Virus record (IMG/VR): IMGVR_UViG_3300033148_001467
Location: 1 to 45,970 of that record
Origin: a virus
Direction: 5' to 3' (one strand)
Length of the DNA stretch: 45,970 nt
Positions 2,408-37,133 of this stretch are shown here, piece by piece. Under the pieces are notes generated by a model. It worked only from the letters and a program-made list of their open reading frames with translations, searched no databases and had not been told where the DNA came from. Position 1 is the stretch's first letter; every line of letters begins with the position of its first letter. The position numbers and the translations under genes were made by a program.

Positions 2408-3916
2408 ATGAGCATTATACAAGAAATTAGAGATACATATGGCGTGGCTGGCGACACAGACAGCTACAAATTTTCACATCCTGCACAGTACCCAAAGGGA
2501 ACTGAACGGTTAATGAGTCACATCTTTAGCAGGGGCAGCGAACAGTTTAATGAAGTACAATGGTTCGGTTTACAGTTGGTTATCAAGGAGCATTTGCTTC
2601 GACAGTTGACGCACAAGCAAGTTGATAACATTATTGCCTTTCAGCGCGAACATTTGTTCGGCACTGAGATTGACGAACTGGAAGTTGCGCTTCGCGCAGT
2701 AGTTGACGATTACGATGGCTACATGCCATTGAAGATTCGCGCAATTCCAGAGGGCATGGTGATTCCTACGAAACAGTTGCTTGCAACAGTTGAGTCAGCA
2801 GTAGCAGATGAGCGAATCATTGCGCTAACAACGTACATGGAAACGCTGATTATGCGAGTATGGGCACCTACTACAGTCGCTACCACATCGTACCACATCA
2901 AAAAGATTATCTATGATGGTTTGTTGAAATCGGCTGACGATGCAGATGCAGAAATCGGATTCAAGCTACACGACTTCGGTTCTCGCGGTGTATCAAGCAT
3001 GGAAAGCGCAGCATTCAATGGCGCAGCACATCTTGTTAACTTCTTAGGAAGTGACACGACTGTAGGTATCATGGCAGCAAACATTGGCTACCATGAGAAA
3101 ATGGCTGGTTTTAGCATTCCTGCTACAGAGCATAGCACAACAACAGCGTTCGGGCGCGACGGCGAACCAGAGTTTATCGCACAGATGTTCGATAAATTTG
3201 CAAAGCCAGGCGCGATTTTCGCTACTGTAGCAGACAGCTACGATCCGAAACATTTCATTGATGTAATTGCACCGATGTTCAAAGATCGACTACGTGCTTC
3301 TGGCGCAACATGGGTGATTCGCCCCGACAGTGGCGATCCAGTGCTGACACCAGTAGCATTTGTTAAGCGATTGTCTAGAGTCTTTGGGTTCACGTACAAT
3401 AGCAAGGGCTACAAGGTTCTTGACGGAGTTCGCGTAATCCAGGGCGACGGCATCGACATCGAAGATGTTAGGCAGATTATTGACTTGCTTCTTGAGGATA
3501 ATTGGAGCATCAGCAACATCGCATTCGGAATGGGTGGAGGTCTGTTACAGAAGAACAACAGAGACACACTGAAGTTTGCAATGAAAGCTTGCGCACGATA
3601 CACAGATGGTGTTTGGATCGACATTTACAAAGATCCTACCATTTACGATGCAACTACTTGGGAGCCAATTAGCTCAAGCTTCAAGAAGTCTATGGCTGGT
3701 CGTTTGGAACTGATGTACAACGGCAAAGACCACAAGACTGTACGTGTAGAAGAAGTTGCAGCAATGATGTCTGCTGGCTACACACCAATGCTTGAGACAG
3801 TCTACGACAGTGGTAAGCTAATTCGTGATATGACATTTGCAGAAGTTCGTGAAAATGCGAAACTTCCAGCAGAGCGTATTAATATCGAAGTAGTAGAAGC
3901 AGTCGAGACTGTCTAA
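2408..3916 (+). CDS. nadV: nicotinamide phosphoribosyltransferase (NAMPT)
   Basis: At 502 residues it matches the usual NAMPT length. It makes NMN from nicotinamide and PRPP, the committed step of NAD+ salvage. Visible family features are the N-terminal DTDSYKFSHPAQYP motif, HDFGSRGVSSMESA near 190-203, PATEHSTTTAFG around 238-249, and the phosphate-binding RPDSGDP near 304, followed by GDGIDIEDV. The start ATG has AAGGAG about 8 nt upstream. NMN made here feeds the adenylyltransferase encoded at 833. Similar NAMPT/NMNAT pairs in other phages rebuild NAD+ during infection and can counter NAD+-depleting defences; that role here is inferred from family and linkage. Confidence 0.93.
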   Translation: MSIIQEIRDTYGVAGDTDSYKFSHPAQYPKGTERLMSHIFSRGSEQFNEVQWFGLQLVIKEHLLRQLTHKQVDNIIAFQREHLFGTEIDELEVALRAVVDDYDGYMPLKIRAIPEGMVIPTKQLLATVESAVADERIIALTTYMETLIMRVWAPTTVATTSYHIKKIIYDGLLKSADDADAEIGFKLHDFGSRGVSSMESAAFNGAAHLVNFLGSDTTVGIMAANIGYHEKMAGFSIPATEHSTTTAFGRDGEPEFIAQMFDKFAKPGAIFATVADSYDPKHFIDVIAPMFKDRLRASGATWVIRPDSGDPVLTPVAFVKRLSRVFGFTYNSKGYKVLDGVRVIQGDGIDIEDVRQIIDLLLEDNWSISNIAFGMGGGLLQKNNRDTLKFAMKACARYTDGVWIDIYKDPTIYDATTWEPISSSFKKSMAGRLELMYNGKDHKTVRVEEVAAMMSAGYTPMLETVYDSGKLIRDMTFAEVRENAKLPAERINIEVVEAVETV

Positions 3917-33002: not shown

Positions 33003-33036
33003 GGGGTTGTTGCTTTGCAACAGCCCCTGTTTTCGT
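33003..33036 (+). terminator. intrinsic terminator
   Basis: GGGGTTGTTGC (33003-33013) pairs with GCAACAGCCCC (33017-33027), 11 bp with one wobble, loop TTT, followed by TGTTTTCGTTT. Confidence 0.85.
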
Positions 33037-33050
33037 TTCAGGAATACACA

Positions 33051-33494
33051 ATGTTATTAATAGATACATATTTGGCAGAGTCATCTGTACATGGGATAGG
33101 CGTATTTGCAGCAGAGGACATAGCAGAAGGTACACTTATCTGGAAATTTCACCCAGCATTCGACAGTGTTATTCGCAAAGAAGAAATTTCTGATCTTCCT
33201 ACACATATGCTGAACTGGCTATTCGTTCACGCATGGCAAAATGAGGAAGGACACTTTTGCATCGGAATAGACAATGACAAGTACATCAATCACTCAGAAA
33301 ATCCCAATTCCATTTACCAGAAAGAATCTAATACATGGATTGCAGCGCGAGATATAAAGAAAGGCGAAGAACTGACAGACGATTATAGAGAATTTTCTGA
33401 ATCAGACTACGCAAATAGTCTCAGAGGGGACGATGAATACGATCCTGCTATGATTGATGGGCTAGTTGATCTTGTAAAAAACAGTGGTGAGTAA
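33051..33494 (+). CDS. SET-domain protein
   Basis: 147 residues. SET hallmarks in order: SSVHGIGVFAAEDIAEGTLI (residues 11-30, SAM-binding GxG region), NHSENPNS (80-87, matching the NHS/xPN motif) and GEELTDDYREF (105-115, catalytic Tyr112). These form the pseudoknot fold of SET lysine methyltransferases, which transfer methyl from S-adenosylmethionine to protein lysines. There are no pre- or post-SET cysteine clusters. Phage SET proteins are uncommon and their substrates unknown; a host or phage nucleoid or ribosomal protein target would be speculation. Confidence 0.85.
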   Translation: MLLIDTYLAESSVHGIGVFAAEDIAEGTLIWKFHPAFDSVIRKEEISDLPTHMLNWLFVHAWQNEEGHFCIGIDNDKYINHSENPNSIYQKESNTWIAARDIKKGEELTDDYREFSESDYANSLRGDDEYDPAMIDGLVDLVKNSGE

Positions 33495-33889: not shown

Positions 33890-34173
33890 AATATTACTTT
33901 TTTGGACAGCAGTCTGGCGTTTCAGGTAGGTGGGTTAGTTGTATGGGATATACTACAGCAAAAACGTGGTATGAAGACAAGTATGTAGGTTGCCTAGACC
34001 CAATGGACGCCTTTAAAAAAGGAATTCCAATTACTGCTATCGGCTGTTGGGTTTGGGGAGAAGCAAGCACAGACGCAGAAAGATTTAAGCAACGACTAAT
34101 TGATAACAACTTTTCACGATTTATGGGATTGAGAATTGCGAAAAAAGATAGAATTTACGAAACGGCTCGTTAG
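33886..34173 (+). CDS. hypothetical protein, 95 aa, ending inside a tRNA gene
   Basis: Aromatic-rich protein (MKYYFFGQQSGVSGRWVSCMGYTTAKTWYEDKYVG), probably a small alpha/beta fold. The stop TAG (34171-34173) is formed by residues 8-10 of the downstream tRNA, so the last codons (GCT CGT) are the tRNA acceptor stem. ATGA coupling upstream. No family was recognised. Confidence 0.62.
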   Translation: MKYYFFGQQSGVSGRWVSCMGYTTAKTWYEDKYVGCLDPMDAFKKGIPITAIGCWVWGEASTDAERFKQRLIDNNFSRFMGLRIAKKDRIYETAR

Positions 34174-34239
34174 CTCAGTGGTAGAGCAAGCGCCTCTAAA
34201 ACGTATGTGTCCAGGGTTCGATTCCCTGACGAGCCTCCA
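34164..34239 (+). tRNA. tRNA with atypical anticodon arm, possible anticodon CTA
   Basis: Acceptor GGCTCGT / ACGAGCC, D arm GCTC-AGTGGTA-GAGC, T arm CAGGG-TTCGATT-CCCTG and encoded CCA are all perfect; total 76 nt. The anticodon arm is poor: the only loop with U33 is CTCTAAA, reading CTA (amber), with a C-A mismatch closing the loop and one more mismatch at the base of the stem. Alternative registers pair worse. Identity is therefore unsure; it could be a suppressor tRNA or a decayed gene. Confidence 0.75.
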
Positions 34240-34514: not shown

Positions 34515-34705
34515 TGGAAACGTGTAAACACAACGAAAGCGAAGGCGCAGTAGGACTCTGTTGGGGCTGCAAAGCAAACAGAAAAGCAGAGTATGACTTA
34601 ACTGGAACACACGATCCAGAAGAACAGAAGCAATATTGGAATGACGTTTGGGATCATGTTCGTAAACTAAGACGAGCAAAGTTCAAGAGAAAATTACAAG
34701 GCTGA
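34514..34705 (+). CDS. small Cys/His protein, 63 aa, ending inside a tRNA gene
   Basis: CKHNESEGAVGLCWGCKANR has Cys-x-His and CxxC spacing suited to one zinc. The rest is helical and basic (WNDVWDHVRKLRRAKFKRKLQG). The stop TGA lies in the acceptor stem of the tRNA starting at 34701. TAATG coupling upstream. Function unknown. Confidence 0.55.
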   Translation: METCKHNESEGAVGLCWGCKANRKAEYDLTGTHDPEEQKQYWNDVWDHVRKLRRAKFKRKLQG

Positions 34706-34770
34706 TGTGCCGCTGGGCGGATAAGGGCTTCTAAAACCTGGACGTAGGGGTTCGAATCCCCTCATCAGCG
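34701..34770 (+). tRNA. short tRNA-like gene, possible anticodon CTA or TCT
   Basis: Acceptor GCTGATG / CATCAGC and T arm AGGGG-TTCGAAT-CCCCT are perfect. The D arm is reduced (CCG-CTGGG-CGG) and the whole is only 70 nt; CCA is not encoded (GCAA follows). The anticodon region GGGCTTCTAAAACC can be read as T-T-CTA-A-A (amber) or C-T-TCT-A-A (Arg), each with weak pairing. It is probably an unusual or degenerate tRNA. Confidence 0.6.
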
Positions 34771-36091: not shown

Positions 36092-36531
36092 TGTTTACCA
36101 TACCCAAAGAAAACTTTGAACAATACATGGAAGGATATGTAAAGATACATGATGCAGTTGAACAACTGGCAGATTCATATGTCAATACTTTTGGCGAGGG
36201 CGACAGAGAGTACGTATCAGATTTTGAAATCGAATACGATGGCGTACTTGGCTCAATACAAATAGGGTCTGAAATATCACGTTGCGGTTGTTGTGGCCCT
36301 GATTACAATTCGTATAATATTCCGCTTGCTTACCTGCTTGACGATGATTGGATTAACACTGAAAAGAATCGTCGTGCAGCAAAGGCACGAAAACTAAAGA
36401 AAGACAAGGCTGCAAAGGCAGCAATACGAAAGAAAGAAAAAGTCATTAAAGACGCAGCAAAGAAGAAAAGACTTGAGGCCGAACGTTATCAAGAATTTTT
36501 GGAAATGAAAAAAGAGTACGAAAGTAAGTAA
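36091..36531 (+). CDS. hypothetical protein with Lys-rich coiled coil, 146 aa
   Basis: The N-terminal ~90 residues look globular (VSDFEIEYDGVLGSIQIGSEIS then RCGCCGPDYNSYNIPLAYL, with a CxCC cluster). The C-terminal ~55 are a lysine/alanine-rich coiled coil (RRAAKARKLKKDKAAKAAIRKKEK...). Coupled to the gene at 35501 by TAATG. Function unknown. Confidence 0.65.
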   Translation: MFTIPKENFEQYMEGYVKIHDAVEQLADSYVNTFGEGDREYVSDFEIEYDGVLGSIQIGSEISRCGCCGPDYNSYNIPLAYLLDDDWINTEKNRRAAKARKLKKDKAAKAAIRKKEKVIKDAAKKKRLEAERYQEFLEMKKEYESK

Positions 36532-36540
36532 GTGAATTAT

Positions 36541-36719
36541 GGCGGTAATAGCTTAAGGGTAAAGCGCCTGGGGCAAAGTTATATAGCGCGGCCAGTTATA
36601 TATAGCATCACTGCAATGAGCAGACAGGAGACGGTAAACTGCAAGTTAGGTAGTAGGATTACGGCCAACAATCTGAATCAAACCTTGCAGCGCGTTCGAA
36701 TCGCACCGTGCCGCCACCA
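36541..36719 (+). tRNA. tRNA-shaped gene with two insertions (anticodon loop and T stem)
   Basis: 5' GGCGGTA pairs with 3' TGCCGCC (36709-36715), followed by ACCA; D arm GCTT-AAGGGTA-AAGC. The anticodon 5' strand CCTG (36567-36570) pairs with CAGG only at 36625-36628, so about 47 nt interrupts the loop. The T-stem 5' strand is split: CGGT (36632-36635) and GCG (36692-36694) together pair perfectly with CGCACCG after TTCGAAT, separated by 56 nt (36636-36691). The loop lacks U33 and the acceptor/T region is 2-3 nt long, so this copy may be degenerate; no anticodon can be assigned. Confidence 0.6.
36636..36691 (+). other. T-stem insertion element, copy 1 (56 nt)
   Basis: Terminal helix CTGCAAG / CTTGCAG (7 bp). 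The core TTAGG...ATTACGGCCAACAAT...CAAAC is shared with copy 2 at 36835. It starts with AAA. Confidence 0.65.
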
Positions 36720-36730
36720 ATTCAATCTAT

Positions 36731-36913
36731 AGGGGTATAGCTCAGTGGTCAGAGTATCCGTATGCAAACGTGGCATGTGTGGCCTATATGTCGCAGCGGT
36801 TCTATTTAGGCAATGGAATAGACGGACGGTCGGTAAAGCATTAGTTAGGATTTTTATTACGGCCAACAATAGAAGACAAACCTAGTGTGGTTCGAATCCA
36901 CCTACCCCTGCCA
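36731..36913 (+). tRNA. tRNA-Cys(GCA) with two insertions (53 nt and 54 nt)
   Basis: Exon blocks 36731-36768, 36822-36834 and 36889-36913 join to exactly 76 nt: acceptor AGGGGTA / TACCCCT, D arm GCTC / GAGT, anticodon stem TCCGT / ACGGA with loop ATGCAAA (U33, anticodon GCA), variable loop CGGTC, T stem GGT+GG / CCACC around TTCGAAT, discriminator G and encoded CCA. Insert 1 (36769-36821) sits between positions 38 and 39; insert 2 (36835-36888) splits the T stem. Exact ends can slide by a base or three. Known bacterial tRNA introns are group I or II and much larger; whether these are spliced is not known. Confidence 0.75.
36835..36888 (+). other. T-stem insertion element, copy 2 (54 nt)
   Basis: Terminal helix CATTAG / CTAGTG (one G-U pair) at the same place as CTGCAAG / CTTGCAG in copy 1, with compensatory changes. 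Shared core TTAGG, ATTACGGCCAACAAT, CAAAC; begins AAA. Confidence 0.65.
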
Positions 36914-36914
36914 A

Positions 36915-37133
36915 TTACACAGGCTCAACAGTAAAATGTTGGGCCTGTTCTTTTGAGAAAGCGAACAGTGTGTTCATAATTCGGAATTCGAATGCGTTGC
37001 CAGCAGTTGTGAGGTGAGTTACTTCTGCACCTTCGACAAACCCTAGTACCATAAGACGTTGAACGTGTACGTCTGTTGCGTCAACGTGCGTAATAACGCC
37101 CGTTTGCCCAATGCCAAGTTCAGTAATGCACAT
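36915..37133 (-). CDS. feoA: FeoA-family protein
   Basis: 72 residues, the usual FeoA length. GIGQTGVITHVDA, QRLMVLGFVEGAEVTHLTTAGNAFEFRIMNTLFAFSKEQAQHFTV reproduces the FeoA pattern (GxxGxI, RLxxLGxxxGxxV, final beta strands), an SH3-like fold. In bacteria FeoA assists the FeoB ferrous iron transporter, and the same fold occurs in DtxR-type regulators. Its ATG overlaps the stop of the 38284 gene (TAATG), so it is translated with it; the stop is 2 nt from the tRNA-Cys. No FeoB is present in the window. Confidence 0.8.
   Translation of the reverse strand: MCITELGIGQTGVITHVDATDVHVQRLMVLGFVEGAEVTHLTTAGNAFEFRIMNTLFAFSKEQAQHFTVEPV

Follow-up and report, generated by a model that had tools for sequence, protein, structure and literature searches.

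Positions 36731-36913 of a viral DNA sequence present a puzzle: the two ends of a 183 nt gene pair like those of a tRNA-Cys, and two stretches of some 50 nt each interrupt the tRNA body between them. Is this a tRNA gene with two unusually small introns, or an RNA of a different kind built on a tRNA fold? The gene, here called gene B, lies in a 45,970 nt stretch (the window) comprising positions 1 to 45,970 of IMG/VR record IMGVR_UViG_3300033148_001467. Based on comparative analysis, gene B and its relatives are best read as a previously undescribed RNA family and not as a normal tRNA with two small introns.

Phage context of the reported gene

The window derives from a T4-like myovirus encoding UvsX, UvsW, a single-strand-binding protein, a clamp-loader-like protein and a tail sheath protein. 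Its closest named relatives by UvsW are Pseudomonas phages such as PA5oct (57% identity). An ordinary-sized tRNA with a CUA anticodon (34164-34239, plus strand) is found upstream in the same region, together with a second tRNA-like gene carrying CUA at the anticodon position (34701-34770, plus strand; RF00005, 31.8 bits), and neither is a member of the family described below. The window thus holds two CUA (amber) tRNA-like genes although TAG ends only one of 41 open reading frames (ORFs). Amber recoding was considered as context and rejected, given stop codon counts of 37 TAA, 3 TGA and 1 TAG and no gene clearly interrupted by TAG. Other observations in the window are a nucleotidyltransferase-Nudix gene (833-1894) and a nicotinamide phosphoribosyltransferase gene (2408-3916), which form an NAD salvage pair possibly involved in counter-defence, and a phage SET-domain protein (33015-33494).

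Gene B combines a tRNA core with two structured inserts

Gene B (36731-36913, plus strand) possesses an acceptor stem AGGGGTA/TACCCCT and an encoded CCA. The Rfam tRNA model (RF00005) covers positions 36731-36910 as a single match with two long insertions, scoring 31.0 bits, above the gathering score of 29 bits. Removal of both inserts leaves 38 + 13 + 25 = 76 nt, which ARAGORN calls as tRNA-Cys(gca), while the full-length gene receives no call at default settings. The sequence-only reading had described a tRNA-derived gene with inserts of 53 and 54 nt and a 76 nt joined tRNA, and both the sequence and the coordinates are as it claimed. Correct for gene B, this description was incomplete in that it overlooked a sister gene located directly upstream.

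The first insert (36769-36821, plus strand; 53 nt) interrupts the anticodon loop 3' of position 38 and forms two hairpins, Pa and Pb, that covary across A and B genes. Pa (36770-36794) consists of 9 base pairs closed by the 7 nt loop GUGGCCU, with 7 of the 9 pairs changed on both sides among relatives. Pb (36802-36821) is formed by CUAUU/AAUAG and was assigned by helix counts and hand alignment. The second insert (36835-36888, plus strand; 54 nt) lies in the T stem, with GGU before it and GG after it, and its exact junction is uncertain by about 2 nt because GT is present at both ends. Here, stem Pc (CAUUAG/CUAGUG, 36839-36887), supported by covariation, surrounds UUAGG...AAAC and hairpin Pd (36855-36871), whose loop ACGGCCAAC is kept in A and B genes.

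The sister gene, gene A (36541-36719, plus strand; 179 nt), was recognised by eye and by two covariance models described below (R2 and R1). It likewise carries an encoded CCA, and its acceptor stem is GGCGGTA/TGCCGCC. Its first insert (36578-36624, 47 nt) contains Pa (36580-36602, loop GCGGCCA) and Pb (36611-36623, CUGC/GCAG), and its second insert (36636-36691, 56 nt) contains Pc (CUGCAAG/CUUGCAG) and Pd (GAUU/AAUC) with the loop ACGGCCAAC.

The upstream ORF ends at 36531 and gene A begins 9 nt past its stop codon, which makes read-through from this ORF the more likely source of the transcript. Immediately ahead of the array, its strand shows no promoter-like site, so the earlier remark that promoters in this DNA are of the sigma-70 type is uninformative for these genes. 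At the end of the array, a terminator-like hairpin of 12 pairs is followed by a U-rich tail (36919-36953, plus strand), and a matching hairpin is present 3' of the array on all four related contigs (L012, L013, L016 and L017). The ORF spacing and this hairpin make read-through combined with trimming at the tRNA-like ends the simplest expectation. A FeoA-domain ORF (36915-37133, minus strand) overlaps the hairpin and is also found in the relatives.

Gene B belongs to a tandem RNA family found on five contigs

Pattern and protein searches identified relatives on four further IMG/VR contigs (L005/L012, L013, L016 and L017), with L022 being near-identical to L013. Each of these contigs, found in line with the suggestion of the sequence-only reading to look for the same insertion in related phages, carries two to three tandem copies of such genes. 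In total, the family comprises 11 genes of 151-184 nt on five contigs and falls into three paralogous types, A, B and C. The window and L012 carry A and B, L013 carries A and C, L017 carries all three, and L016 carries B and C close to the end of the contig. Gene order is fixed, with ABC in L017 and subsets of it on the other contigs. All 11 genes share the tRNA core and a Pc-Pd side arm inserted between the outer GGU/ACC and the inner T-stem pairs, and nearly all encode CCA. The C genes keep this T-stem insert, lack Pa and Pb, and possess a differently built anticodon arm.

Relatedness was assessed with covariance models built from the four B genes only (R1) or from A genes only (R2), and thereby independent of aligning A with B, in searches of 1.19 Mb of sequence. 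With R1, the four A genes score 62-96 bits and the three C genes 63-82 bits, all at E ≤ 5e-15, while R2 detects every B gene (58-81 bits) and every C gene (29-49 bits). Gene A of the window, which was not part of the set used to build R1, scores 85.3 bits with R1 (E 1e-21) and 215.7 bits with R2; the corresponding values for gene B are 203.3 and 80.8 bits. The highest score of an ordinary tRNA is 39 bits with R1 and about 15 bits with R2. Cross-detection this far above ordinary tRNAs indicates that the A, B and C genes are related beyond being tRNAs. The generic Rfam tRNA model matches only gene B of the window and the C gene of L017 at its gathering score, and the remaining members match no Rfam family at or above gathering score. 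The recurrence of one plan in 11 genes on five contigs, together with the detection of gene A of the window by a B-only model, argues that the architecture of gene B is not due to chance. The earlier argument that the tRNA fit exceeds chance therefore holds, with compensatory changes in most of the variable stems adding to the shared plan.

The searches indicate that the family is rare in the collections covered. Pattern scans with the insert 2 motif returned one true relative (L005), the other matches being chance occurrences in apparently coding sequence, and patterns for the B and C genes retrieved the same two contigs again. A combined search of 80 further UvsW-selected loci with a tRNA descriptor, R1 and R2 yielded no member beyond close relatives. 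Whole records of PA5oct, Atu_ph07 and Phosso as well as larger IMG/VR contigs gave tRNA-level scores only, and the type A motif is absent from one genome each of 84,980 prokaryote species. Two descriptor matches of 200 and 257 nt (L027 and L029) look like spans across neighbouring tRNAs and were rejected as members. As a separate observation, three tRNA genes of the Agrobacterium jumbo phage Atu_ph07 (MF403008.1; 323903-324023, 68156-68280 and 335108-335213, all minus strand; L024, L025 and L026) contain anticodon-loop inserts of approximately 30-50 nt, two of the three with a T-loop-like hairpin. Searches with two of these three genes found no relatives sharing the inserts among phage records.

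Covariation supports both the tRNA core and the inserts

In an alignment of all 11 genes (A6), 94.5% of cells are paired and 27 of 45 pairs are changed on both sides, counts that are biased by the fitting of A6 to a structure derived in part from visual inspection of the same sequences. The alignment reaches a covariation score of 0.534, compared with 0.236 for shuffled alignments (0 of 500) and at most 0.127 with the structure slid. Helices dissected by hand, though picked by eye, agree with this picture. Most of the signal resides in the acceptor, anticodon, Pa and Pc stems, with the D stem contributing weakly. In the acceptor stem 6 of 7 pairs covary, and in Pc 4 of 6 pairs show changes on both sides with 100% of cells paired. 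The acceptor, D, anticodon and T stems are present along with the D-loop GG and the T-loop consensus, the loop consensus being found in nearly all members and the D arm being shortened in the A gene of L012 (L12A). The outer GGU/ACC and inner T-stem pairs are invariant in the counted columns, so covariation speaks neither for nor against them. Taken singly, gene B has a predicted fold no more stable than that of shuffled sequence (z 0.47); for gene A, z is -1.22.

The loops of Pa and Pd are suggested to form a kissing interaction through GGCC that would clamp the two arms together. In gene B, the candidate partners are UGGCC in the Pa loop (36780-36784, plus strand) and GGCCA in the Pd loop (36861-36865, plus strand). 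This suggestion draws on a single compensatory change, GGUC/GACC in the A gene of L017, and across the alignment the pairing is no better than in shuffles (71 of 500). We consider it very doubtful that the inserts are co-operating self-removing mini-introns of about 54 nt each, linked by such a kissing loop within a phage tRNA in a bacterium.

Alternatively, the tRNA-like ends could be mere processing signals, so that an insert arm or an internal piece is cut out to function as a small RNA and the tRNA body is discarded. Consistent with this, a comparison of the A genes of the window and L013 shows no lower conservation in the two inserts (100% and 95% identity) than in the remainder (91-96%). 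However, the body itself covaries in the acceptor and anticodon stems, and its T-loop and D-loop consensus is retained in almost every member, which argues that the body is maintained as a fold and leaves the excised-fragment explanation quite unlikely. The same two phages share only 71% identity in UvsW DNA and 46% at third positions. As judged from these comparisons, the inserts are conserved like functional RNA, on par with the tRNA parts. Between the B genes of the window and L012, identity falls to 68% in insert 1, compared with 89% in insert 2 and 87-92% in the tRNA parts, but the hairpins of insert 1 are retained. Decay of tRNA genes broken by insertions might account for the odd loops of A and C genes and for low recognition by ARAGORN, but strong compensatory evolution in inserts and body and the high conservation relative to 71% identical coding DNA make such a pseudogene origin extremely unlikely and disfavoured.

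The inserts are probably not introns

The sequence-only reading took the two inserts to be introns. Covariation in the relatives bears out the tRNA core and the insert positions it described, and intron status is the part that is not supported. With the inserts removed, ARAGORN calls three of the four B genes (WB of the window, L16B and L17B) as tRNA-Cys(gca), and GCA is kept in all four, which makes a self-splicing or nuclease-ligase route conceivable for type B. At least the B genes might then be tRNA-Cys(GCA) precursors from which a new type of self-splicing, or a nuclease and a ligase of host or phage origin, would remove the inserts to give products of 74-77 nt. Such precursors would fit the narrow range of B-gene insert lengths (53-55 nt), the covarying anticodon-stem pairs and the conserved insert structures, as would be seen in a ribozyme. 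Nevertheless, we consider this an unlikely explanation, since the A genes carry the same inserts and none of their four joined products is recognised as a tRNA by ARAGORN. Among the B genes, joined L12B is a tRNA only with an odd loop of 8 nt, and two of the four carry C at position 33. Joined C genes are tRNA-like only with junctions deliberately set for a 7 nt loop. Across the eight A and B genes, U33 is found in two, WB and L12B, while L16B, L17B and L17A have C and WA, L13A and L12A have G. The motif GCAAA is common to A and B genes and, combined with the presence of U33 in only two of eight, points to a structural motif and not an anticodon. Type A genes additionally possess a T stem of 6-7 bp.

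Known splicing signals were likewise not found. At permissive thresholds (E up to 5), no group I, group II or other Rfam intron family was detected, with one chance match being the only hit besides tRNA. In five genes, a strict definition of the bulge-helix-bulge (BHB) gave no motif whose two cuts both fall 4 nt or less from a junction, and an archaeal splicing endonuclease is not expected for a T4-like and thus bacterial phage. The scanned proteins of the window, which represents a fragment of the phage genome, include no recognisable RNA ligase or splicing protein.

A proposed tRNA-like RNA scaffold and its possible function

Overall, we favor an interpretation in which the T4-like phage encodes tRNA-like structured RNAs in a tandem array that includes gene B, and these RNAs are probably trimmed, remain unspliced and act in trans as tRNA mimics. 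Transcription of the array would probably continue from the upstream gene to the terminator-like hairpin, and both ends of each RNA would probably be trimmed by host tRNA-processing enzymes, which can likely act here because the acceptor stem, D arm, T loop and mostly the encoded CCA are kept. In the unspliced RNA, the Pc-Pd side arm would branch from the T stem between the outer GGU/ACC and the inner pairs to give a three-way junction, and hairpins Pa and Pb would take the place of the anticodon loop in types A and B, with the GGCC loops of Pa and Pd perhaps holding both arms together. A role in trans as a stable tRNA mimic appears most likely because the anticodon loop of most members is not built for decoding. 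More speculatively, the RNA could act on a host factor that recognises tRNAs, for example by serving as its decoy or binding platform.

Viral tRNA-like structures and tmRNA mimic tRNA with a CCA end, a T loop and extra structured domains, features also seen here. In contrast to them, the present RNAs are encoded by stand-alone tandem genes, keep the D arm, carry inserts in the T stem and anticodon loop, and have neither a tag reading frame nor a link to the 3' end of an RNA genome. Group I introns of bacterial and phage tRNA genes share the insertion in the anticodon loop, whereas the inserts described here are 53-54 nt long in gene B, lack a group I match and are accompanied by a second insert in the T stem. 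Archaeal and algal tRNA genes can carry several introns, some of them away from the canonical anticodon position, and the review describing them also mentions a three-intron tRNA-Cys(GCA) (PMC4090602). The phage RNAs resemble these multi-intron tRNAs in being interrupted at several places, including non-canonical positions, but belong to a phage with a bacterial host and lack a BHB at the junctions, and their inserts are structured, conserved and also present in genes whose joined products are not recognised as tRNAs. ROOL and GOLLD are likewise phage-encoded structured RNAs, often located near tRNA genes and stabilised by kissing loops, but they are several hundred nucleotides long and form nanocages (PMC12286853). 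The RNAs described here are 151-184 nt long, are built on a tRNA core and have no Rfam match to either. The RNAs first called T-large, which are circularly permuted group II introns of approximately 900 nt (PMC8637638), were considered as relatives and rejected as unrelated. A search of the open-access literature, with subscription papers mostly outside its scope, found no earlier description of such RNAs.

If the inserts are spliced, they would be bacterial introns removed by a new mechanism and much shorter than those of group I or group II. If the RNAs are used unspliced, as we favor, they would constitute a new class of phage RNA in which the tRNA fold serves as a scaffold bearing arms at two places that normally have to remain intact. 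One report ties phage tRNAs to escape from host defence (PMC11555353). An unspliced family would show how far a tRNA core under selection can be elaborated and would offer a testable tRNA mimic.
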